Source of the DNA: a virus
DNA: 26,332 nucleotides
Strand: one strand, 5' to 3'
Virus record (IMG/VR): IMGVR_UViG_3300033143_004261
Location: 1 to 26,332 of that record
The notes beneath the pieces were generated by a model. The model was not told where the DNA came from. It did no database searches and saw only the letters and a program-made list of their open reading frames with translations. The translations under genes were made by a program, and so were the position numbers. Each line of letters starts with the position of its first letter. Position 1 is the first letter of the stretch. Of the stretch, positions 8,106 to 26,332 are shown in pieces.

Positions 8106-8192
8106 ATGTCAGAAGTAGTTCGGGATTCCTTTGATTCTTATACTGGTACTCCAGACGAGAGCAAGTGGGGTGATGTATATGCCCTTAGGTGA
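8106..8192 (+). CDS. 28-residue remnant of a LamG-like domain
   Basis: A reading frame from ATG 8106 to TGA 8192 with GGGTGA eight bases upstream. Its product includes DSFDSYTGTPDESKW, which matches the opening strand of the lectin-like domains downstream (DQFNYVGIPDPSKW, DQFNYTGPPDPSKW). It stops after only about 25 residues of what should be a domain of about 185. It overlaps the likely start of the next gene (8179). It looks like the stump left when a domain copy was deleted or replaced. It may still be translated and couple ribosomes to the next start. Confidence 0.5.
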   Translation: MSEVVRDSFDSYTGTPDESKWGDVYALR

Positions 8193-9381
8193 TTTTTATT
8201 ATGCCAATCTTATAGGAGTCGCGGGTATAGTTCCTCCGGCGTGTTCATTCGAAGACCAGTTTAATTATGTGGGGCCCGCCAACCCGACAAAATGGATAGT
8301 AGTCCAGGGGAATCCGACTGCGGATGGAACACAATTAACGCTTCATAAAGCCACTGGATATCCGTATGATGAGGATGTGATGTGGGCGCGTGACCCCATA
8401 TCAGGAACTGAAATTAAGTTCGATTGTGATAAAGTTATTCTTGAAAGTAGGACGAGGTTCAGGGTAGACTCGGCCCAGGGACATATACAAGCTGTAGATA
8501 TGTCAACCCTAGGACGATTTATAATAAACTCCAACTATGGTTCTGGAATACGCTTTCATACAAGTGATGGTACGTTATGGTCTTGTACCTATTGGGCGTG
8601 GCCTGATGATGATTATCACGATTTCAGAGTTGAATGGGATAGACTTTTACGGGTGTATAAGTGTTTCATGGATGACGTTTTGGTGGCCACTCATTCGCAC
8701 GTCTTGGGAGACAAAGTTCCTGATTCAACTTTCAATCCACAACTTCAGTTACTTGGGAATTATATGGGTATAGAGAAGGATATGTATTTCGATTGGATTA
8801 AAGTTTGTCCAGTCGAATATCTATTTGAGGATCAGTTCAATTATGTTGGTATTCCTGACCCATCGAAATGGATAATAAATTCTGGTTCACCAACAGTGGA
8901 TGGAACCCAACTAATACTTTATAAACCACCAACATCAGCCTCAGTGATAGCTGGTGATGCATCAACCGGAATCCAAAAACTATTCGATTATGACAAATAC
9001 AACACGGAATTTAGAGCGCGGTTCAGGGTGGGCGCGGCAGAGGGAAGAGTATATTTGCCCGATTATGTCACAGGCCAATATATTCAAATGAAATCTAATT
9101 ATGGCTCTGGAATTGCGTGCCAATCGTCGGATGGGTCGGGATATACGCGCACAGTGATTCCTTGGCCAGACGACAACTATCATGATTTCATTATTGAATG
9201 GAACCGAATCACGCGTGTTATCAAGTTTTACATGGACGACGTATTGAAAGCTACTCATTCAAATCCAAGTGAAAGTGTCCCAGACAGTACTTTTAATCCA
9301 GTCCTTTATGTAGGTGCCCCCTATATGGGAAGCCCGGAGGACCAATATGTAGATTGGATTATTGTTAAGGAGGTTCTATAA
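8179..9381 (+). CDS. Tandem LamG/concanavalin A-like lectin protein (two domains)
   Basis: About 400 residues from ATG 8179, chosen because GGGGTGA lies five bases upstream; the frame is open further up to ATG 8131 but without a ribosome site. Two copies of one jelly-roll domain follow each other, about residues 22-210 and 212-400. Each opens FEDQFNYVG--(N/D)P-KW, continues with 'VDGTQL-L', a 'RARFRV' strand, SNYGSGI, then YHDF-(V/I)EW-R with an F-MDDVL-ATHS strand, and closes 'DWI-V'. This is the concanavalin A-like fold used by phages to bind sugars. The ExDxE catalytic motif of family 16 glycosidases is not seen, so binding is more likely than cleavage. Its last base is the first base of the next gene's ATG. 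Confidence 0.8.
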   Translation: MPLGDFYYANLIGVAGIVPPACSFEDQFNYVGPANPTKWIVVQGNPTADGTQLTLHKATGYPYDEDVMWARDPISGTEIKFDCDKVILESRTRFRVDSAQGHIQAVDMSTLGRFIINSNYGSGIRFHTSDGTLWSCTYWAWPDDDYHDFRVEWDRLLRVYKCFMDDVLVATHSHVLGDKVPDSTFNPQLQLLGNYMGIEKDMYFDWIKVCPVEYLFEDQFNYVGIPDPSKWIINSGSPTVDGTQLILYKPPTSASVIAGDASTGIQKLFDYDKYNTEFRARFRVGAAEGRVYLPDYVTGQYIQMKSNYGSGIACQSSDGSGYTRTVIPWPDDNYHDFIIEWNRITRVIKFYMDDVLKATHSNPSESVPDSTFNPVLYVGAPYMGSPEDQYVDWIIVKEVL

Positions 9382-9632
9382 TGCCACAACCTGGTTTTCA
9401 TTGGTATGAAATTCCGAGCAAGGATGACCCCGTAGATGAACAGGTGCCTGATTTCTCGGGGGGAAGCGAACCCACAAAAGAATACCTTGTGAGCTTCGTT
9501 GGGTCCTGGCCAGAGAGCGTGGTTTGGTATCTGTTAGTCGAAGAAGTATTGACGGGGTTTACCGAGCTAACCGACGGTCAAGTGAGTGCGGCCGGAATGG
9601 AACCCAATCGAACAGTAACAGGAGGAGAATAA
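9381..9632 (+). CDS. Small acidic WYE-family protein, copy 1
   Basis: An 83-residue protein with AAGGAGG seven bases before ATG 9381. It is the first of four related small proteins in this array. Shared features are an opening M-QPG--WYE, an acidic middle with 'PDF', a central strand with aromatic residues (VVWYLLVEEVL), and the tail LTDGQVSAAGMEPNRTVTGG. I do not recognise a known family. Because each member is followed by or sits beside a lectin-like gene with tight coupling, I infer that they act together, for example as an anchor or chaperone for the lectin domain on the virion. Confidence 0.65.
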   Translation: MPQPGFHWYEIPSKDDPVDEQVPDFSGGSEPTKEYLVSFVGSWPESVVWYLLVEEVLTGFTELTDGQVSAAGMEPNRTVTGGE

Positions 9633-9872
9633 ATGGCGCAACCCGGATTAACATGGTATGAGGTTCAAGCAATCGAAGGAGAGTTGGGGCCCAAACCAGA
9701 CTTTGGCGATAATGCACCGACACAACCTGCTGTTGCGACTCAATGGGGGGCGGGCTCCTCTTCTACATTTGTGGTTCTCGCACAAGAGACACTACCCTTC
9801 CTGATTTTGACAGATGAAGAAGTGGAAGCCAAGGGAGTGGACCCCAATAGAACAATATCAGGGGTGACATAA
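9633..9872 (+). CDS. Small acidic WYE-family protein, copy 2
   Basis: A 79-residue paralogue of the preceding gene, starting directly after its stop with GGAGGAG as ribosome site. It keeps M-QPG-TWYEV, KPDFGDNAP, a central strand (TFVVLAQETL) and the full tail LTDEEVEAKGVDPNRTISG. The ending 'DPNRT-(S/T)G' is nearly the same as copy 1, which marks a duplication. The next gene starts at GTG immediately after the stop. Function unknown. Confidence 0.65.
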   Translation: MAQPGLTWYEVQAIEGELGPKPDFGDNAPTQPAVATQWGAGSSSTFVVLAQETLPFLILTDEEVEAKGVDPNRTISGVT

Positions 9873-10436
9873 GTGGGCGGAAGACCGTTCTGGGCCAATA
9901 GTGAACCAATAATCACGTACTTATTTGAGGACCAGTTTAATTATACAGGGCCGCCGGATCCAAGTAAATGGACAATATATATGGGTCTGGCGTCAGTCGA
10001 TGGTTTGGAACTTGTTTTGCCGACAGTTCCATATCATAATCGTGTTATATCAATTCCAACATTTCTACACAAAGAAGTAGAATTTAGGAGTAATATTGCT
10101 CTTATTTCGTCGCCTATAACATGGGGCTATTGTGGATTTTTTACTATAGCACCAGTTCCTAACGGGGCTTGGCTTCGTAGAAACACCGATGGAAATATCT
10201 ATCTCGCAACTGCTGGCCCCCATGGCAATGAACTCGTTGCGCTAGTACCACAACCGTCCGCGGCTTACCACACATATAAAGTTGCGTGTGAAGCATCACA
10301 AGCAGTTGCTTATGTCGATGATGTCCCCGCTGCTGTGGCCAACATTCACGTTCCAGATCAAGCTTGTCCTGTGTCTATCTTATTATTGAACGGTGTGTCA
10401 GTGCCATTAAAAGTAGATTGGGTGAGGGTGAAATAA
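9873..10436 (+). CDS. Single LamG-like lectin protein, MGGRPFW start
   Basis: A 187-residue protein starting at GTG 9873, with GGGGTGA five bases upstream inside the preceding gene. After a short MGGRPFW leader comes one lectin-like domain: LFEDQFNYTGPPDPSKW, 'SVDGLELVLP', EVEFRSN, 'AYHTYKVACE', 'VAYVDDVPAAV' and a final 'VDWVRVK' strand. It is more divergent from the tandem protein than the two domains there are from each other. The fold call is good; the ligand is not known. The ATG of the next gene follows the stop directly. Confidence 0.72.
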   Translation: MGGRPFWANSEPIITYLFEDQFNYTGPPDPSKWTIYMGLASVDGLELVLPTVPYHNRVISIPTFLHKEVEFRSNIALISSPITWGYCGFFTIAPVPNGAWLRRNTDGNIYLATAGPHGNELVALVPQPSAAYHTYKVACEASQAVAYVDDVPAAVANIHVPDQACPVSILLLNGVSVPLKVDWVRVK

Positions 10437-10622
10437 ATGTCTCAGCCGGGATTAAATTGGTATAAGTGCAATACGACGCTCGAAGAAGATGAAACCAAAT
10501 TTAAGTATCCAGATTTTATACACTCTGAAATTTATTATGCCTTTATGTTTATCGACGGAATAAATTGGGGCATTCTGACTACAGAAGTGCTCGCCCTGCC
10601 AACATTGACAGATGTAGAGTGA
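10437..10622 (+). CDS. Small WYE-family protein, copy 3, C-terminally truncated
   Basis: A 61-residue paralogue (M-QPGLNWYK, YPDF, INWGILTTEVL) with GAGGGTGA as ribosome site. It ends LTDVE at a TGA, where copies 1 and 2 continue for about 17 residues to 'DPNRT-(S/T)G'. The TGA shares its last base with the ATG of the next lectin gene. The loss therefore coincides with the junction to the following gene, which suggests that a recombination placed the MGRPFW lectin cassette on top of this gene's end. Confidence 0.6.
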   Translation: MSQPGLNWYKCNTTLEEDETKFKYPDFIHSEIYYAFMFIDGINWGILTTEVLALPTLTDVE

Positions 10623-11224
10623 TGGGGAGACCGTTCTGGGCGACAGGAGGGGGCACTGCACCATCCCCATACCTCTTCGATGAAGAATTCGACTACGTGG
10701 GTGGCCCAGATCCAACTAAGTGGACTACTATAATTCATTCTACAGATTGTGGCAATTGCACAGTAGATGGTAACTATCTTCATATGCCAGGTGCAAAAAC
10801 TGGTGGACCAACTTATGGAAGTATCTGGACGGACCACTTCTTTAGCCAAAAGACAGTTGAAATAAGGGCGGACTTTCTGATGCCGACGAATTCTTATGGT
10901 CACCAAATACTTATCTACACGGATGTAGGTAGTTTCATCCAACTCGGAAAGCCGAGTGCACCATCGACTCAACTATTATTCAGAACTTTTGATGGAAGCA
11001 CCTTGTCTCAAAGTGCTATAAATGTGTCCTCTGGATTTCATGTATTCAAGGTAGTTTGGACACCAACATCCATACAGCTTTATCTCGATGGCGTGCCCGG
11101 TCCAATACATGCGGAGGCTATTACTGGAAATGCACGAATAATTATATATGGAATAACTACTCCAATACCATCCGGGGCGTGCCAGGGTCCAGTCTTATAT
11201 GATTTTATGAGGGTGTATCTATGA
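10622..11224 (+). CDS. Single LamG-like lectin protein, MGRPFW start
   Basis: A 200-residue protein. ATG 10622 is preferred over upstream ATG 10565 because the product then begins MGRPFW like its paralogue at 9873, and because the DNA from AGACCGTTCTGGGC onward is shared by both. The domain runs SPYLFDEEFDYVGGPDPTKW, a DCGNCTVDGNYLHMPG loop with a CxxC, EIRADFLMP, 'FHVFKVVWT', 'IQLYLDGVPGPIHAEAITG' and the end 'LYDFMRVYL'. It is closest to the C-terminal lectin domain at 13033-13599, with DNA stretches of 16-22 identical bases. It overlaps the next gene by four bases (ATGA). Confidence 0.72.
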   Translation: MGRPFWATGGGTAPSPYLFDEEFDYVGGPDPTKWTTIIHSTDCGNCTVDGNYLHMPGAKTGGPTYGSIWTDHFFSQKTVEIRADFLMPTNSYGHQILIYTDVGSFIQLGKPSAPSTQLLFRTFDGSTLSQSAINVSSGFHVFKVVWTPTSIQLYLDGVPGPIHAEAITGNARIIIYGITTPIPSGACQGPVLYDFMRVYL

Positions 11225-11448
11225 CATGGTACAAAATTCCCACTCAGTTACATGAGTATGATATAATAGGCGAAATAAACGTTACAGACTACGGTGAGTT
11301 CGTACCAACGACGGAGAGTTTTGCACGAGAAGTTAATCTGGGGGGAACGTTCTGGTATTACATGCTCACCAACGAAGCAATGCCCTTCGACGAACTTACA
11401 GACGAAGAAGTTGCAGCACAGGGGCTAGACCCAAATATGACATTATAA
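11221..11448 (+). CDS. Small WYE-family protein, copy 4
   Basis: A 75-residue protein starting at the ATGA overlap with the lectin gene before it. It begins MTWYKIP (the QPG part is missing), keeps the acidic middle, the aromatic strand (GTFWYYMLTNEAM) and LTDEEVAAQGLDPNMTL. It stops three to four residues before the 'SG' end of copies 1 and 2. Its start depends on translational coupling to the upstream gene, since no separate strong ribosome site is seen. Function unknown. Confidence 0.62.
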   Translation: MTWYKIPTQLHEYDIIGEINVTDYGEFVPTTESFAREVNLGGTFWYYMLTNEAMPFDELTDEEVAAQGLDPNMTL

Positions 11449-11461
11449 GGAAAGATCGAAA

Positions 11462-11647
11462 ATGAACGAACAGGAGTTTCAGAACTTATATCAGCAGGGT
11501 AAGGCAGCCCTCGGATTGACATGGGGTGAGATAGCTGTGCGACTCGAAGAAGTCGAGGGCCAAGGATGGCGTCTCTATTTCTATGAAGAGATAGACGGCG
11601 AGCCGCAGCTTGAAACAGAGGAGGTATGGGAATCATGGCCGACGTGA
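11462..11647 (+). CDS. Small MNEQEF-family protein, short form
   Basis: A 61-residue acidic protein: MNEQEFQNLYQQGKAALGLT, 'W--IAVRLEEV', then WRLYFYEEIDGEPQLETEEV and 'WESWPT'. The end of the gene holds the ribosome site (GGAGGT, 11620-11625) and start (ATG 11635) of the next gene, giving a 13-base overlap. The same arrangement recurs at 14249, so the pair is a unit. The relative at 13596 has the same two ends separated by an inserted module of about 160 residues. No known family recognised. Confidence 0.65.
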   Translation: MNEQEFQNLYQQGKAALGLTWGEIAVRLEEVEGQGWRLYFYEEIDGEPQLETEEVWESWPT

Positions 11648-13599
11648 TAACGACCAAAGCTGATTTTGACGAGGGAATCTATATTGATACTATGTCCGAG
11701 GAAATCCCTGGCATCATCCCACCCGATTGTTTAACTCTTGGGGAGATTGGGCCCCTCTCTATGGGGACTCCCGCCAACATGATTCCAGGTGTTGGCCACT
11801 CTTGGAAAATCTATAAGGTAGCACAATCAATTACGTTGGACTCAAATTTAACAATTGATAGTGTGAATGTACGTTTTGCTAACGGTGGAACTGGTGATCC
11901 AATCCTTTATATGACTGTGGTCCCAGATATTGCTGGTGACCCAGACACATCGACTATTCTTGCGGAGAGTGATCATAGATCAGTTCTGCCCTGGGCTGAA
12001 GCCTTTCGCATATTTAATTTCCCTCCTGTTAGTTTAACACCAAATATATATTGGCTCGTACTTCAGGCCGAAGATGGAACGCCCCCAAACAATTTTAGGA
12101 TTCTGAGGTCTGGCAAGCCATCATCGTATCCATTCGGGCACATGGCAGGATGGTCTAGCACGACACCATGGTGGTATCATCAAGCGACTACTGATATGAG
12201 GATTGTAGTAACATTCAGTGAAAATATATTTCATGCTTCTGGTAGTTGGAAAAGCGACGAGAGGGTGACGCCCCCCATATCAAGAGTTGCTAATTATGTC
12301 TTTGATATTGTGGCAGGGTCTGGTGATGTGGATAACTATATTAGTAAAGTTGATATAGTTCGTACCTCTGACATGACTGTGGTCGGGACTTATTTAACAC
12401 CAATTCGTGATGATATCACACTCACACCTGCGGATTTTGGAATAACTGAAAGGCCAACTTTTGATTGGCTTTTTGATGTGTACCTAATTGGTGACACTAC
12501 TACAAGCATTCAACTTAATTCCATAACAACAGATTTTGTTGCAACAAGTCTTTATAATGCGGTGTTGCTCGATTTCAAACGAGCAATAGTAGCCGAATAT
12601 CCGGAATTTAACGTTGAGATTGCCGGAACCGATGTCCCAAAACGCGATGCGCTTCAACCTTATATTTATATTATACCAATTAACATTAATACAGAATTCA
12701 ATCCTATTGGACACAAGACAAATGCAGGTCATGGCGAAGGTCAAATATGGGGATTTAAAGTTTCAGTCATTGCACGACGTAATGTTTTCGTGCGTGGAAG
12801 AAGCGAATCGGAAATGTTACGCAATATTGGTGAATTGATGTATAAATTCTTTCGAAATACGGAAGAAAATCTGCGCACCGTATTCCTGGAAACTTATGAA
12901 TACATTCGATATTTCCATGTTGGTAATTTGAGTAGTATTGTCTATGCCCCAAAAACAGAGGAATCTAGGATTGATCTCGATGTGCGTATAGAATTTAACA
13001 AGACACGACCTGTAGCTCCAACACCTCCACCATCACCATACCTCTTTTATGAACCGTTCGATTATGAAGGACCACCAGATCCAACTAAGTGGCCAATGGT
13101 AAATAATTCATCGGACTGTGGAGATTGCGAAGTCGATGGCGACCACCTTCGTATGCCAGGCATAGAAACTCAAAGTCATGGGACATTTGGAAACATCTGG
13201 ACAGACTTCTTCTTTAGCCAAAAAGAAGTCGAAGTAAGGGCGGACTTTCTGATGCCAACGGATTCTTCTGGAATATTCATCGACATCTTTATAAACGATG
13301 ATAATTGGATTCGAATTATCAAGCCCGTTTTAGTATCGACTGTCGTATCATTTCAAACGAGACAAGGTGGTGGCCTAATACAATCTAGTTTTGTGACTGT
13401 CTCTGCTGGATTCCATGTATTCAAGATAAGTTGGACGTCTGAACATGTGGGGTGTTTTGTTGATGGCGGCGCAGGTCCAATACATACGACGGCCATTACT
13501 GGAAATGCACAAATAGGTCTATATGGGATAGAGGGCCCGAAACCGTCTGGGACATGTGCGGGCCCGATATTATACGACTATGTGAAGGTGTATCGATGA
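11635..13599 (+). CDS. Multidomain virion protein: beta domains + tail-terminator-like domain + LamG
   Basis: 654 residues from ATG 11635, nine bases after GGAGGT; ATG 11626 is too close to that site. Domains in order: a short N-terminal motif (KADFDEGIYIDTMSEEIPG); a beta domain of about 130 residues of a type common in secreted and virion proteins (NVRFANGGTGDP ... VPDIAGDPDTS ... NIYWLVLQAEDGTP); a second beta domain, about 200-300 (NYISKVDIVR, TYLTPI, 'LTPADFG'); an alpha/beta domain, about 303-458 (YNAVLLDFKRAIVAEYPEFN, LQPYIYIIPI, ESEMLRNIGELMYKFF). The last recalls tail terminator proteins, which cap the tail tube. A Pro-rich linker then leads to a lectin domain (about 467-654). The four-base ATGA overlap couples it to the next gene. 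The terminator-like call is tentative; the modular structure is clear. Confidence 0.68.
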   Translation: MADVITTKADFDEGIYIDTMSEEIPGIIPPDCLTLGEIGPLSMGTPANMIPGVGHSWKIYKVAQSITLDSNLTIDSVNVRFANGGTGDPILYMTVVPDIAGDPDTSTILAESDHRSVLPWAEAFRIFNFPPVSLTPNIYWLVLQAEDGTPPNNFRILRSGKPSSYPFGHMAGWSSTTPWWYHQATTDMRIVVTFSENIFHASGSWKSDERVTPPISRVANYVFDIVAGSGDVDNYISKVDIVRTSDMTVVGTYLTPIRDDITLTPADFGITERPTFDWLFDVYLIGDTTTSIQLNSITTDFVATSLYNAVLLDFKRAIVAEYPEFNVEIAGTDVPKRDALQPYIYIIPININTEFNPIGHKTNAGHGEGQIWGFKVSVIARRNVFVRGRSESEMLRNIGELMYKFFRNTEENLRTVFLETYEYIRYFHVGNLSSIVYAPKTEESRIDLDVRIEFNKTRPVAPTPPPSPYLFYEPFDYEGPPDPTKWPMVNNSSDCGDCEVDGDHLRMPGIETQSHGTFGNIWTDFFFSQKEVEVRADFLMPTDSSGIFIDIFINDDNWIRIIKPVLVSTVVSFQTRQGGGLIQSSFVTVSAGFHVFKISWTSEHVGCFVDGGAGPIHTTAITGNAQIGLYGIEGPKPSGTCAGPILYDYVKVYR

Positions 13600-14261
13600 A
13601 TGAGCAGGAGTTCCAAAATTTGGTTGAAGAGGGCAAGACCGCCCTCGGATTAACGTGGGACGATTTAGCCGTGCGTATCGAAGAAGTCACTCAAGGGACA
13701 ATAGGATGGTTAGGCCCGGCAATATCACCATATGACTACTTCACACCAGGTAAGTTTTACCTTCTAGTAGATGACAGGGCGACAGCCTCGGGGTCGATTG
13801 ATTCGGTGCAAATCCATCTAGGGAATCCTAGTTGGTTCCCTGAAACGATTGCTTATATCGCAACCTATCGCGACTCAGGAACACCAGGAGTTGTTACAAG
13901 GGTCAATCCAGCATCGGTGCCACCATATATTACAATACCCTTTAGAAGCTCGGTAGGAGATTTGTTATCACTTCCATTATCAAAAACACTAGACGTTGAA
14001 CTTGGCGATTATATCGGAATAGTCTCTCATCACTGGGGTCTGAGCGGAAATAGTCCACCATCTGATCATCCTTCAAAGGATGCTGGCAACATGTTCACCC
14101 CCCCACCAGCAGTTGATATTAGTTTATACTCAAGTTCGGGACCAGTCGTGGGTATGACCATTGCAGTACCGCCTGATCAATGGCGCCTTTATTTCTATGA
14201 AGTTATAGATGGTGTGATACAATACGGGACTGAGGAGGTGTGGGAATCATGGCTGACATAA
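13596..14261 (+). CDS. MNEQEF-family protein with inserted module, long form
   Basis: 221 residues from ATG 13596, which overlaps the upstream TGA; the frame is open upstream but the match to the 61-residue relative begins here. Residues 1-31 (MNEQEFQNLVEEGKTALGLT, 'LAVRIEEV') and 195-221 (QWRLYFYEVIDGV ... EEVWESWLT) correspond to the two halves of the short form. Residues about 32-194 are an in-frame insertion beginning TIGWLGPA and ending SSSGPVVGMTI. It is predicted to be a beta sandwich, and a related copy occurs in the next gene. The end of the gene again carries the next gene's ribosome site (GAGGAGG) and start. Confidence 0.66.
   Translation: MNEQEFQNLVEEGKTALGLTWDDLAVRIEEVTQGTIGWLGPAISPYDYFTPGKFYLLVDDRATASGSIDSVQIHLGNPSWFPETIAYIATYRDSGTPGVVTRVNPASVPPYITIPFRSSVGDLLSLPLSKTLDVELGDYIGIVSHHWGLSGNSPPSDHPSKDAGNMFTPPPAVDISLYSSSGPVVGMTIAVPPDQWRLYFYEVIDGVIQYGTEEVWESWLT
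13689..14177 (+). repeat. Inserted protein module, copy A (in the 13596 gene)
   Basis: In-frame segment of about 163 codons that interrupts an otherwise colinear 61-residue family. It begins near TIGWLGPA, contains 'SIDSVQIHLGN', 'IAYIATYRD-GTP', LSLPLSKTLDVELGDYIGI and SSSGPVVGMTI. It matches copy B at 14624-15061 at the protein level in the same order. Confidence 0.7.
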
Positions 14262-16063
14262 TCTCGAAAAAAGCCGATTACGATGCGGGAACATATGACG
14301 ATACAATGTCAGAAGAGGTGCCCGGAATCATACCACCTGATTGCTTAAGTTTGGCAGTGACTAGCGAAGCATCCTTCTCCACAGATGACCCACCTTTAGT
14401 TGGTGCACCATTGGTAGAAGTACCAAGTATCGACAATCTTGAAGCTGGACAATCATTCCTTGTAACTACTCCACTATCAGTTTTTGCAATTGAAGCTTAT
14501 TTTACTACTTTGGGTGAAGTGTCTGGCGATCCAGTTATGTATGTAACGATAGTCGCAGATGATGCTGGCAATCCTGATACTACTATTATTGCAGAGAGCG
14601 TTCACCGAACGATTCCCATAGAGGAGGGAACAATAGGTTGGAAGGGGCCAGCGCCTAGTGGGTCCGCTGCATTCTTCTCAAATCAAACTATTATCAACAT
14701 TCAAGACTTTGCAACGCACGACGGGACGATTGATGAAGTCACTTTCGAAATGCACAGCGAACCCGCCGGGGCGGGAATCGTTGCCATATATCGAAATATT
14801 GGCGGAACCCAATATCAGAAAATAGACGAGGCGGCCATCGATGTGCCACCAGGATCTGGTATTCACACCGTATCTTTATCAAAAACGCTTTCGGTGTTAG
14901 TTGGCGATGCAATTGCCTTCTACACGCCAACTCTAGGTCTTATGTCACAACATACTGGACACCCGGGCGCTGTCCATGCAGGAAGTCCTCCGGCCATCTT
15001 TGACGCTTCAAGCTCCGGAAACGGGCCTGTTGTTGGGGCAGACATTACTACAGTCGTCCCCGAAACATTTAGTTTCACGACCCCTGCTTCATTGGCTCCT
15101 GGCACATATTGGGCCGTGTTTCAGTCCGAATCCGGAACTCCTGGGGGCAATTTAAGAAGTATAAGAACAAGAACACCCTCAGCATATACAGGTGGTCATC
15201 TTGCTTTTAGAACAAATACGGACCCTTCGTGGTTTCATTACCCCAATCACGATTTAACTATTATCGTACATGTGACTGCTTTCTACGACTTTGGTAGCTG
15301 GAGGAGCAATCTGCGCGACACACCAGCTGCGGTAGAAGTTATTAACTATGATTTTGATATAAACATAGGAAGTGGCGACGCCAATAATTATATAAACAAA
15401 ATCGATATAATTCGCGCTGAAGATATGGTTGTAGTTGGCAGTTATACAATACCAATCGAAGTGAGCACACTTCTTACTCCTACCGACTTTGGAATGACAG
15501 AAATTCCAAATTTCAACTGGTATTTCGATGTGAGTATCATCGGTGATATGACGAAAAGTATTCAGCTTAACTCGATAACAACTAATTATGAACCGATGGG
15601 TCTCTATAATGCAGTGTTGCTTGATCTCAAACGTGCAGTTGAAGCTGAATTTCCGGGGTTCAATATTGAAGTTGCAGGAAATACCGTGCCAAAACGTGAC
15701 GAGGATCAACCATATATCTATATTGTACCACTCAATATCGTAACTACTTTCAACCCAATTGGGCACGAAGTTGCAATAGGACACGGTGAAGGCCAGTCAT
15801 GGAATTTTATTATTGCAATAATAGCCAGACGTGATATCTTTATGAATGGGGAGAGCGGAGCAGAAATGATTCGTACAATCAGTGAGCATGTCTACGAATT
15901 TCTCAGAAATGCCGAAGAAGATTTAGACAAGATTTTTCTCGAAGTAGAACACAATATACGTTATCTTTCTGTAGGTAACTTGACAGGGACGCTCTACGAT
16001 TCAGATACGGAAGAATATAGAATAGATGTTGATTTCAGTGTGGAATTTAATATTACGAGATAA
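14249..16063 (+). CDS. Multidomain virion protein with inserted module and tail-terminator-like end
   Basis: 604 residues from ATG 14249, placed after GAGGAGG as in the first copy. It is a paralogue of the protein at 11635: same N-terminal motif (KADYDAGTYDDTMSEEVPG), first beta domain (VMYVTIVADDAGNPDTT ... GTYWAVFQSESGTP), second beta domain (NYINKIDIIR, SYTIPI, LTPTDFG) and terminator-like domain (LYNAVLLDLKRAVEAEFPGF, DQPYIYIVPL, AEMIRTISEHVYEFL). Two differences stand out. A module of about 146 residues (TIGWKGPA ... SSSGNGPVVGADI, 14624-15061) splits the first beta domain. The protein also ends at FNITR, where the first copy runs on into a lectin domain. Probably a virion component near the head-tail joint or tail surface. 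Confidence 0.68.
   Translation: MADIISKKADYDAGTYDDTMSEEVPGIIPPDCLSLAVTSEASFSTDDPPLVGAPLVEVPSIDNLEAGQSFLVTTPLSVFAIEAYFTTLGEVSGDPVMYVTIVADDAGNPDTTIIAESVHRTIPIEEGTIGWKGPAPSGSAAFFSNQTIINIQDFATHDGTIDEVTFEMHSEPAGAGIVAIYRNIGGTQYQKIDEAAIDVPPGSGIHTVSLSKTLSVLVGDAIAFYTPTLGLMSQHTGHPGAVHAGSPPAIFDASSSGNGPVVGADITTVVPETFSFTTPASLAPGTYWAVFQSESGTPGGNLRSIRTRTPSAYTGGHLAFRTNTDPSWFHYPNHDLTIIVHVTAFYDFGSWRSNLRDTPAAVEVINYDFDINIGSGDANNYINKIDIIRAEDMVVVGSYTIPIEVSTLLTPTDFGMTEIPNFNWYFDVSIIGDMTKSIQLNSITTNYEPMGLYNAVLLDLKRAVEAEFPGFNIEVAGNTVPKRDEDQPYIYIVPLNIVTTFNPIGHEVAIGHGEGQSWNFIIAIIARRDIFMNGESGAEMIRTISEHVYEFLRNAEEDLDKIFLEVEHNIRYLSVGNLTGTLYDSDTEEYRIDVDFSVEFNITR
14624..15061 (+). repeat. Inserted protein module, copy B (in the 14249 gene)
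   Basis: In-frame segment of about 146 codons splitting the first beta domain of the multidomain protein. It begins TIGWKGPA, then 'TIDEVTFEMHS', 'IVAIYRNIGGT', VSLSKTLSVLVGDAIAFYTP and SSSGNGPVVGADI. The host protein resumes at ETFSFTTPASLAPGTYW, which aligns with the uninterrupted paralogue (AFRIFNFPPVSLTPNIYW). Confidence 0.7.
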
Positions 16064-16440: not shown

Positions 16441-16800
16441 ATGTATGAATCTTTAATAGTAGCAATAATCATCGCAATTATTGGCGGTGTTCTGAACATA
16501 TTATACGAGAAAATGTATGCAGACAAAAACTTTGCATTAACAAAACAACTATTGCTAAATAGACTTGGGACAGCGGCTGTAGCTGGTGCTCTCGTATTCT
16601 ATGGACTTGCGGATGCAGCCACCACAAACTTTGATGTTGTTGCATTGGCTCAGAATTTTGGACTAACCAAAGTAGCAGATTTCATTGCTTATGGCGTGCC
16701 ATTTGTTGCCAGTGGTTACTTTGCTGATGACGTAATCGATGTCGCAGTAAAGAAAATCAAAAGTAATATAAAGGAGAAACTCCATGGTGATAAGATATAG
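16441..16800 (+). CDS. Membrane protein, putative holin
   Basis: 119 residues with GAGGAGG before ATG 16441. Three hydrophobic stretches are visible: about 4-18 (SLIVAIIIAIIGGVL), 43-61 (GTAAVAGALVFYGLADAAT) and a weaker one at about 84-103 (YGVPFVASGYFADDVIDVAV). A basic tail (KKIKSNIKEKLHGDK) follows. Size, number of segments and the charged C-terminus fit small phage holins, and it follows a holin-helper-like gene by 12 bases. No specific holin family is recognised, and no endolysin lies in the window, so the call stays tentative. Confidence 0.55.
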   Translation: MYESLIVAIIIAIIGGVLNILYEKMYADKNFALTKQLLLNRLGTAAVAGALVFYGLADAATTNFDVVALAQNFGLTKVADFIAYGVPFVASGYFADDVIDVAVKKIKSNIKEKLHGDKI

Positions 16801-24044: not shown

Positions 24045-26332
24045 ATGGCTGTTGATTTTGAATTTAAGACAGTAAGCGATTTTAATAGTGGCGTATATAA
24101 TAATATGATAACCGCTGGCGAGTATCTCAAGGCACCCTATGCAGATATTTTGGCAAATGAACTCGATGGAACGCCCACTCTTAGACACTGGTTCACAAGT
24201 GCTGTCTATTACGATTATTGGTGGTTAGAAGTTTTTCAGGATGTTGGCAAAAATGCTGTTGTTGCCCAAACATTCACAAACAATGCATTGACACCATGGA
24301 GTTCGATAAATTATATAAGAAAAGTACGCGTTTGGCCATCTTACATTTCATATGGAGGCGGCATTCCCAAAATGCGATGTCACTTATACACAACTCTCAA
24401 TTATTACGGTCAAATTGTACCGGATCAAAAAATAATGTCGAGCGATCCAGTTTCCGTTCCTATTGGGACAACTGTCTTGGAATTTGACTTCAATGAGCGA
24501 TTATTTCTTCAAAATATTCCCACTAATATCTATGCTCTTGTATTTGAATGGTATGAAGCTGGTTGGGCCCGTTGTCGATTCAATTCATATCTTAGTGGCA
24601 CCTCGTATCCTTATGGTGGTTCATTGCATACATCTATTGGTGATTTCTGGCAAGAAGGGGATCCACACAGTGTGTGGACATCAACACCTTGGGATGACTT
24701 TAAATTTGAGATTCTTGGCGAAGATATGATAGAATACAGCGAATGGACGAGCCCCGAAATTCATAAATTTGCTTCTGGCGTGGATGAAATTGAACTCGAT
24801 GTATATCATGAAAATGTTGCAACGCCGAACTATATTTCCTATGTTCAGCTTCTCGACCCTACGACCCTTGCAGTATTGGCAACTTATACAACTCCAATTA
24901 CTACAGAATCCAAAGTTCTGGTTCCATCTGATTTTTCGCCGAGTTTGACTTTAATCAATCAACGCTTCAAACTTAAGATTCAACAGCGTGCTCAAAATCC
25001 AATTAGATTCTTTGGAACTGATGAAATAATTATTCGTGGTGCTGATTGGGACCAACGTATAACAACCACAGACGAATTTGGCATTTTCAATGGTGCTCTC
25101 TGGACAGATAATAGTGTCATTGATTATGATAGCAATCCTTTAAGGCTGGACTCAGGTTATGGCGGTTTCGATAGTTTTGCTCCATACTGGGGTTCGTGGA
25201 GTGATTTGCAAACACACACACCAATTACGATGAATAGTGCTTTTGTGGGAGAGACACCTTTTGTTGCTGTGAATCAATATCAAGCTCAGGTAATTGATGT
25301 ATTTACTTTGGATATCCCCGAGGATTATACATGGTATTATATCTATGGTATACAGATTTATATTCGAGATTTTGTAAATATTGCTCCTCCTGTACCATTA
25401 AAAGTTGGTCTTTATCGAGTCCTTCCTACTATTTTGCCATTGGATACCGGATTGGATCCCACCCACTTGATTGCTGAAGGTACCACTTTTTGCTATAATC
25501 AGTTTACACCAGAGGGATTTATACTTAATAAGATGGTTTATCTTCAAAAAGGAGAGCAGCTTGTAATAGTTGTCAGTCCTGTACAACCAATCAACTTTAG
25601 TCAAGGTGTTAATATAGGAGTGAGTACAGGAGATACTTTTCCAGGACAGCGTTACGATGGCAGGGATTTTACTGGTTGGGATCCTCAAGTTGGTGATATG
25701 TGGTTCAAATTATGTGGTGAGAGAATTCACAGTTCACTTCAGCAGCTTCTCCCAGAATTGGAACTTCCAGGTGGTTACGTAATCGATCATGTTGAATATG
25801 ATGTAGCAAGAGCGGGTTCATTTACCGATGGCGGTGGGAATACGATTGTTAGAAGTATTAGGGACAATCAAGTTTCAGACAAAGATAAGGGCGTCCTTGT
25901 TGCTCGCTATTTCCCTAGCAGTACCGCTCCTGAAATATTAACGAATGGAACCCATAGTTTCACACTTGAGACATTCCCCGAACACATTGATACATTCCAA
26001 AGAGATACAAATTGGCAATACTGGGTTAGAACAGCAAATCATGTAACTGTATGGGGTAGTGGCGACACAAATAATGAGTTCGGCCCAGCCGTTGATGAAT
26101 TCAGAGCGTATTGGAGATTCGAAGCGCCACAAGTTTCATCCGTAACGATTTCGGAAGGAGAGATTGATGTAAAAAAGAATACAGTCCCGCATTTCCTTTT
26201 CACAAAAGCTATGAATCAAGCAAGTGTGGAGGCCGAATTTAGTATCACCCCACCGATTGCAGGGACTTTCCAATGGGATGACGATTTTAATTTAAAGTAC
26301 ATATTAACGCCGGGAACGTATTTTCTACCAAC
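24045..26332 (+). CDS. Large multidomain tail-tip or fibre protein (3' end beyond window)
   Basis: An open frame from ATG 24045 to the window end, about 762 codons without a stop; GAGGTGAG lies just upstream. The N-terminus (FEFKTVSDFNSGVYNNMITA) resembles the start motif of the proteins at 11635 and 14249 (KADFDEGIYIDTMSEEIPG). A domain at about 24735-25035 (YISYVQLLDPTTLAVLATYT, TPITTESKVLVPSDFS) is related to their second beta domain. Further beta domains follow (WYYIYGIQIYIRDF ... 'DMWFKLCGERIH'). The visible end, PHFLFTKAMNQASVEAEF, with 'G-F-W' and 'ILTPGTYFL', is a bacterial Ig-like (Big_5/SbsA type) domain. Directly after the tape measure one expects the distal tail or baseplate, so this is probably a tail-tip or adhesion protein. 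No catalytic motif is seen. Confidence 0.72.
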   Translation, partial: MAVDFEFKTVSDFNSGVYNNMITAGEYLKAPYADILANELDGTPTLRHWFTSAVYYDYWWLEVFQDVGKNAVVAQTFTNNALTPWSSINYIRKVRVWPSYISYGGGIPKMRCHLYTTLNYYGQIVPDQKIMSSDPVSVPIGTTVLEFDFNERLFLQNIPTNIYALVFEWYEAGWARCRFNSYLSGTSYPYGGSLHTSIGDFWQEGDPHSVWTSTPWDDFKFEILGEDMIEYSEWTSPEIHKFASGVDEIELDVYHENVATPNYISYVQLLDPTTLAVLATYTTPITTESKVLVPSDFSPSLTLINQRFKLKIQQRAQNPIRFFGTDEIIIRGADWDQRITTTDEFGIFNGALWTDNSVIDYDSNPLRLDSGYGGFDSFAPYWGSWSDLQTHTPITMNSAFVGETPFVAVNQYQAQVIDVFTLDIPEDYTWYYIYGIQIYIRDFVNIAPPVPLKVGLYRVLPTILPLDTGLDPTHLIAEGTTFCYNQFTPEGFILNKMVYLQKGEQLVIVVSPVQPINFSQGVNIGVSTGDTFPGQRYDGRDFTGWDPQVGDMWFKLCGERIHSSLQQLLPELELPGGYVIDHVEYDVARAGSFTDGGGNTIVRSIRDNQVSDKDKGVLVARYFPSSTAPEILTNGTHSFTLETFPEHIDTFQRDTNWQYWVRTANHVTVWGSGDTNNEFGPAVDEFRAYWRFEAPQVSSVTISEGEIDVKKNTVPHFLFTKAMNQASVEAEFSITPPIAGTFQWDDDFNLKYILTPGTYFLP

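Follow-up and report, generated by a model that had tools for sequence, protein, structure and literature searches.

The window, i.e. the whole stretch of 26,332 nucleotides analysed here, carries two adjacent copies of a two-gene unit, each consisting of a small gene (S1, S2) and a large one (L1, L2), and the two copies carry different additional β-sandwich domains. With moderate confidence, this arrangement can be explained by the duplication of a coupled pair of neck genes followed by their stepwise decoration with adhesin-like domains. According to this explanation, S and L would be virion genes linked by translational coupling, S encoding the small partner, the terminator-like C-terminal domain of L would build a ring at the head–tail junction, behind outward-facing β domains, and the pair would then have been duplicated. 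The decorations would have been added later to exposed loops and ends—homologous C1q/TNF-like jelly-rolls inside both members of the second unit and, at the end of L1, a GH16-like lectin whose relative is the neighbouring gene 10619. The host cores would thus keep their role in assembly, the decorations would bind glycans or surfaces at the neck, or stabilise the neck itself, and the particle would display several adhesin-like surfaces.

Paralogy of the two units

The genes and the inserted modules are the following:

11462–11647, plus strand: S1, small protein of 61 aa without module, with the predicted hairpin turn EEV-EGQG-WRLY that is interrupted in S2
11635–13599, plus strand: L1, with N-terminal β domains, a tail-terminator-like domain and a C-terminal GH16-like lectin
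13596–14261, plus strand: S2, 221-aa paralogue of S1 with a module in the predicted β-hairpin turn
13695–14180, plus strand: module carried by S2, 162 aa (GTIGWLGPA...GPVVG...PPDQ), for which a jelly-roll is predicted from weak matches of the C1q/TNF-like type
14249–16063, plus strand: L2, paralogue of L1 with a module in the N-terminal jelly-roll and without the C-terminal lectin
14627–15067, plus strand: homologous counterpart of this module in L2, 147 aa

The pairs S1–L1 and S2–L2 are colinear paralogues, as had been claimed in an earlier note made from the sequence of the window. The flanks of S1 and S2 share 23 identical residues out of 31 on the N-terminal side and about 20 out of 26 on the C-terminal one (74–77% identity), while the segments of L1 and L2 are 43% identical over 130 aa ahead of the insert and 54% over 328 aa past it. 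In both units, S and L overlap by 13 nt and a GAGGAGG Shine-Dalgarno sequence is located within S, 5' of the start codon of L, which suggests that the two genes are translationally coupled. Concerning the divergence of the two units, synonymous substitutions have reached or almost reached saturation, and the dN values are 0.13–0.16 for the flanks of S and 0.30–0.45 for the segments of L. The same note had treated L1 as the copy free of the module; this is correct, but L1 has a modification of its own, a C-terminal GH16-like lectin domain of 196 aa that is absent from L2.

Homology and fold of the module pair

The modules of S2 and L2 are related to each other, with 33–35% sequence identity and a BLASTP E-value of 7e-14. 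Their Smith-Waterman score of 140 is well past chance—1000 shuffles gave a mean of 33, a standard deviation of 6 and a maximum of 77—and this rules out the non-homology of the two modules. No signal of kinship was seen between the module and the N-terminal jelly-roll of the host protein or any other protein of the window.

The structure model of S2 has a pLDDT of 71 and a pTM of 0.63. A Foldseek search with it against the PDB retrieved TNF-family proteins as the best, albeit weak, matches (E 4e-3, TM 0.3–0.4), and among predicted viral proteins there were 12 matches with E at or below 1e-3, including collagen-repeat and minor tail proteins, those with a C1q domain scoring slightly lower. The module is thus probably a C1q/TNF-like jelly-roll, this being the best guess from the model. 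Domains of the C1q/TNF-like type are common receptor-binding or trimerising knobs, and jelly-rolls of this kind usually form trimers. The knobs of phage fibres and needles have the same fold class as the best structural matches of the module; they differ from it, however, in showing no sequence similarity and in being placed at the fibre tip, whereas the module is internal, situated in loops.

Insertion sites and polarity

In both S2 and L2 the module is inserted in frame with both flanks retained, so that S1 and S2, as well as L1 and L2, align on either side of it. In S2, the insertion separates EEVTQ from WRLYFYE. The order of elements in the S2 model is the host helix 3–17, the host strand 24–31, the module at 34–190 and the host strands 195–204 and 207–217; this strand order, together with the tight turn EGQG as the counterpart in S1, indicates that the module probably interrupts a small β-hairpin of the host protein at its turn. 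The host sites had been described as unrelated, which holds for their sequences; in terms of structure it should be specified that the site of S2 is a predicted β-hairpin turn and that of L2 a putative loop between jelly-roll strands.

The window itself offers an outgroup for the L genes:

24045–26330, plus strand: distal tail gene, the N-terminal two-domain region of which is paralogous to L1 and L2 and has no module at the site of L2

The region of gene 24045 matches L1/L2 with a profile E-value of 5.9e-7 (best of 1000 shuffles 0.11), and the alignment passes through the insertion site of L2 without any module there. Since both gene 24045 and L1 read through this site, the module of L2 is a gain and not an ancestral module lost from the first unit. 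As a side observation, the two-domain region common to the distal tail gene and L1/L2 (window 24045–24980) means that one N-terminal decoration has been employed twice.

With regard to S2, the scans yielded no sister virus by which its insertion could be polarised. The ~75-aa small proteins encoded at 9381, 9633, 10437 and 11221 were considered as a possible S outgroup and rejected, S1 matching them with only 7.1 bits, a score beaten by 5 of 2000 shuffles, and with an hhalign probability of 5%. The case for S2 is therefore argued from structure, since a domain that interrupts a hairpin turn is a derived state, and from parsimony, which both suggest that its module would also be a gain.

Origin and possible mobility of the modules

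It is unlikely that the ancestral unit had both modules and that the first unit lost them cleanly twice. The dN of 0.77 between the modules, compared with 0.13–0.45 for the hosts, is what would be expected if the modules had split before the duplication of the unit, but a faster evolution of exposed domains gives the same pattern; moreover, two exact deletions in the first unit would be required, gene 24045 runs without a module through the L site, and the compact EGQG turn has been kept at the S1 site. Less probable still is the proposal of the earlier note that the module behaves as a mobile domain cassette moving between genes. It draws on the two homologous copies found in adjacent genes, at unrelated sites, in frame and with intact flanks. 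At the DNA level, however, the modules are only 43% identical, their divergence exceeding that of every host segment, and this value, together with their dN, makes a recent hop between S2 and L2 unlikely. The alternatives are the acquisition of two modules that already differed and a faster evolution of the modules. The shared edge sequence that might have accompanied the insertions was not seen, since no direct or inverted repeats of at least 7 bases span the module edges at S2 or L2, although an old insertion could have lost them. More recent copying is documented by the lectin and not by the module.

Nor was the module encountered inside other host proteins: a third copy was found neither in the window nor in 2.9 million viral contigs of IMG/VR (searched by peptide and DNA patterns), 50,697 INPHARED phage records and the scanned genomes, these searches being based on two sequences and short patterns, which distant relatives may escape. 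A scan of the phylum to which an Anaerolineales MAG belongs, covering 400 genomes, likewise yielded no module, and the DNA-pattern matches to TIGWxGPA and GTIGWxGPA elsewhere were chance matches. The module is thus known from two copies in one virus population.

The earlier note also suggested that matching modules might point to direct contact between the partners. As a rival reading, the modules of S2 and L2 would be matched partners whose mutual binding directs S2 to L2 instead of L1. The presence of the module in both members of one unit only, the translational coupling of S and L with their 13-nt overlap and the tendency of C1q/TNF-like jelly-rolls to trimerise, which is general knowledge, are in line with such pairing. 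This support is, however, circumstantial; at 35% identity a common interface is not required and each module could bind the host surface independently; the pairing is considered unlikely. An extension of the same idea, to be taken as very unlikely, would be two orthogonal neck pairs, S1–L1 and S2–L2, with the modules of the latter recognising each other, with each small protein joining its own terminator exclusively, and with virions, or a single neck, carrying two differently decorated terminators. If the modules do match, they would offer an uncomplicated natural case in which to test how duplicated parts of the virion are kept from assembling wrongly.

Lectin domains of L1 and its neighbourhood

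The lectin of L1 and its nearest relative are defined as follows:

13009–13599, plus strand: C-terminal GH16-like lectin domain of L1, 196 aa, 55% identical to gene 10619–11224 (dS 0.89), without E-x-D-x(x)-E
10619–11224, plus strand: stand-alone GH16-like lectin gene, the nearest relative of the C-terminal domain of L1

The domain is joined to L1 by a proline-rich linker. It belongs to one family of five lectin domains found at 8131–13599, i.e. two in gene 8131, one each in genes 9873 and 10619, and the C-terminus of L1. The lectin domains of L1 and of genes 8131, 9873 and 10619 match the GH16 profile with E-values up to 6e-12, and the GH16 catalytic motif E-x-D-x(x)-E is absent from all of them; judging from the sequence, the L1 domain is GH16-like and catalytically empty. 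The virus domains thus resemble the GH16 glycoside hydrolases and concanavalin-like lectins in profile similarity, but differ from them in being shorter and in lacking the catalytic motif.

The dS of 0.89, set against the saturated segments of L1 and L2, makes the relationship between the L1 lectin and gene 10619 younger than the duplication of the units, and points to the L1 domain having been copied from, or to, this neighbouring gene more recently than that event. Together, the lectin family genes and the L1 lectin mark the stretch of 8.1–16 kb as a region where β-sandwich domains have been duplicated and attached to virion proteins.

Two further features of this stretch may be mentioned. 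At window positions 8131–11448, genes for small proteins (~75 aa, ...LTDEEV..G.DPN.T), which are homologous to one another, alternate with those for GH16-like lectins, forming a tandem expansion. At 8106–8192, a short open stretch, MSEVVRDSFDSYTGTPDESKW, resembles the start of another lectin domain and is followed by a stop; the reading frame of gene 8131 overlaps it out of frame, so that a frameshift or a decayed lectin start is possible there.

The C-terminal domain of L1 and L2

The domain in question is the following:

15566–16060, plus strand: C-terminal domain of L2, tail-terminator-like, with the order α-β-β-β-α-β-β (counterpart in L1 at 12514–13008)

The AlphaFold2 model of L2, built from two sequences, has a mean pLDDT of 39, with values mostly of 50–62 in the C-terminal domain, and is too poor to place the module; the C-terminal domain is modelled as a helix, three strands, a long helix and two strands. 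When this model (pLDDT 39) was compared with the PDB by Foldseek, the best 15 matches were all terminator, neck or tail-cap proteins of tailed viruses (probability 0.99–1.00), the best E-value being 1.4e-3 and none going past 1e-3. They include proteins of lambda (gpU) and of the Haloferax virus HFTV1, as well as 2gjv, which was deposited as a protein of unknown function and is listed as a terminator in a paper on T5 (PMC11784142). No terminator match was obtained in Pfam or PHROG for L1, L2 or the isolated C-terminal domain, and the PDB gave no sequence match. Based on the model, the C-terminal domain of L1 and L2 looks tail-terminator-like.

Terminator genes usually adjoin the gene of the tail tube. 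L1 and L2 are not beside that gene and precede other putative connector genes; it would, moreover, be unusual for a single virus to have two paralogous terminators. This gene order, the low confidence of the L2 model and the lack of a Pfam or PHROG match would all suit the alternative that L1 and L2 are other ring-forming or decoration proteins of the head or tail and not tail terminators; with all 15 top fold matches being terminator, neck or tail-cap proteins, this alternative is regarded as doubtful, albeit somewhat less so than the double loss or the pairing of modules discussed above.

Assuming that L1 and L2 are terminators, their C-terminal α/β domain would share its fold with the phage tail terminators lambda gpU, T5 p142 and phage 812 gp99, the last of which likewise has an extra β-sandwich domain (PMC12886913). 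They differ from these in possessing N-terminal β domains of ~300–450 residues plus a lectin or an inserted module, and in being two paralogues located upstream of other connector candidates.

Comparison with other virion decorations

Domains of the β-sandwich type are known as additions to virion proteins. Besides its terminator with the extra domain, phage 812 has separate decoration proteins (PMC12886913), and the tail tube protein of YSD1 contains an inserted β-sandwich, domain2 (PMC8718954), comparable with the present case as an insertion in a structural protein. As far as can be taken from the citation of Fraser et al. 2006 in PMC8718954, Ig-like and other β-sandwich decorations are similarly added to or inserted in virion proteins and shuffled between genes. 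In contrast to them, the homologous modules described here occupy both of the adjacent partner genes in one copy of a duplicated unit, and their fold looks C1q/TNF-like, not Ig-like. The S/L units are a clear case of domain shuffling in genes for the virus particle, known in kind and unusual or new in arrangement. They present several outcomes side by side—a bare S1, a lectin-tipped L1, and the jelly-roll-inserted S2 and L2—and indicate that a tailed virus can rebuild the surface of its particle via β-sandwich domains in loops of structural proteins, probably at the neck and not in the usual tail fibres.

The virus and its population

The IMG/VR record is linear, and its 26,332 bases represent the structural block of a tailed virus, PHROGs recognising the terminase large subunit, portal, major capsid protein and tape measure. 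The closest known capsid proteins are those of the haloarchaeal Hafunaviridae, with ~24% identity, and an overlapping record of the same population encodes, 5' of the terminase, a PF10107 protein (endonuclease related to archaeal Holliday junction resolvase, 8e-35); these two features make an archaeal host plausible. Beyond two records of the same population, the viral and genome scans revealed no close relatives, and the scans for diverged ones led back to this population or else to haloarchaeal viruses at a very great distance and terminases (21–24% identity), or to chance pattern matches, and to nothing more.

A second IMG/VR record of this population, 99.4% identical, has the identical arrangement of S, L and the modules. 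Some differences were seen with regard to record 3300033153_009056. At 10613 the window is 48 bp shorter than this record, an in-frame difference of 16 codons that leaves the small protein 10437 with 61 instead of 77 aa. Conversely, that record lacks 85 bp corresponding to 15600–15684 of the window (L005 11914), by which L2 is broken within the terminator-like domain; the gap is ~365 bp from the end of the contig and reflects either faulty assembly or a genuine disruption of L2 within the population. Finally, window positions 16441–16800, between L2 and the other candidates for neck genes, encode a protein of 119 aa that weakly resembles a holin (PF16083, E 0.009).
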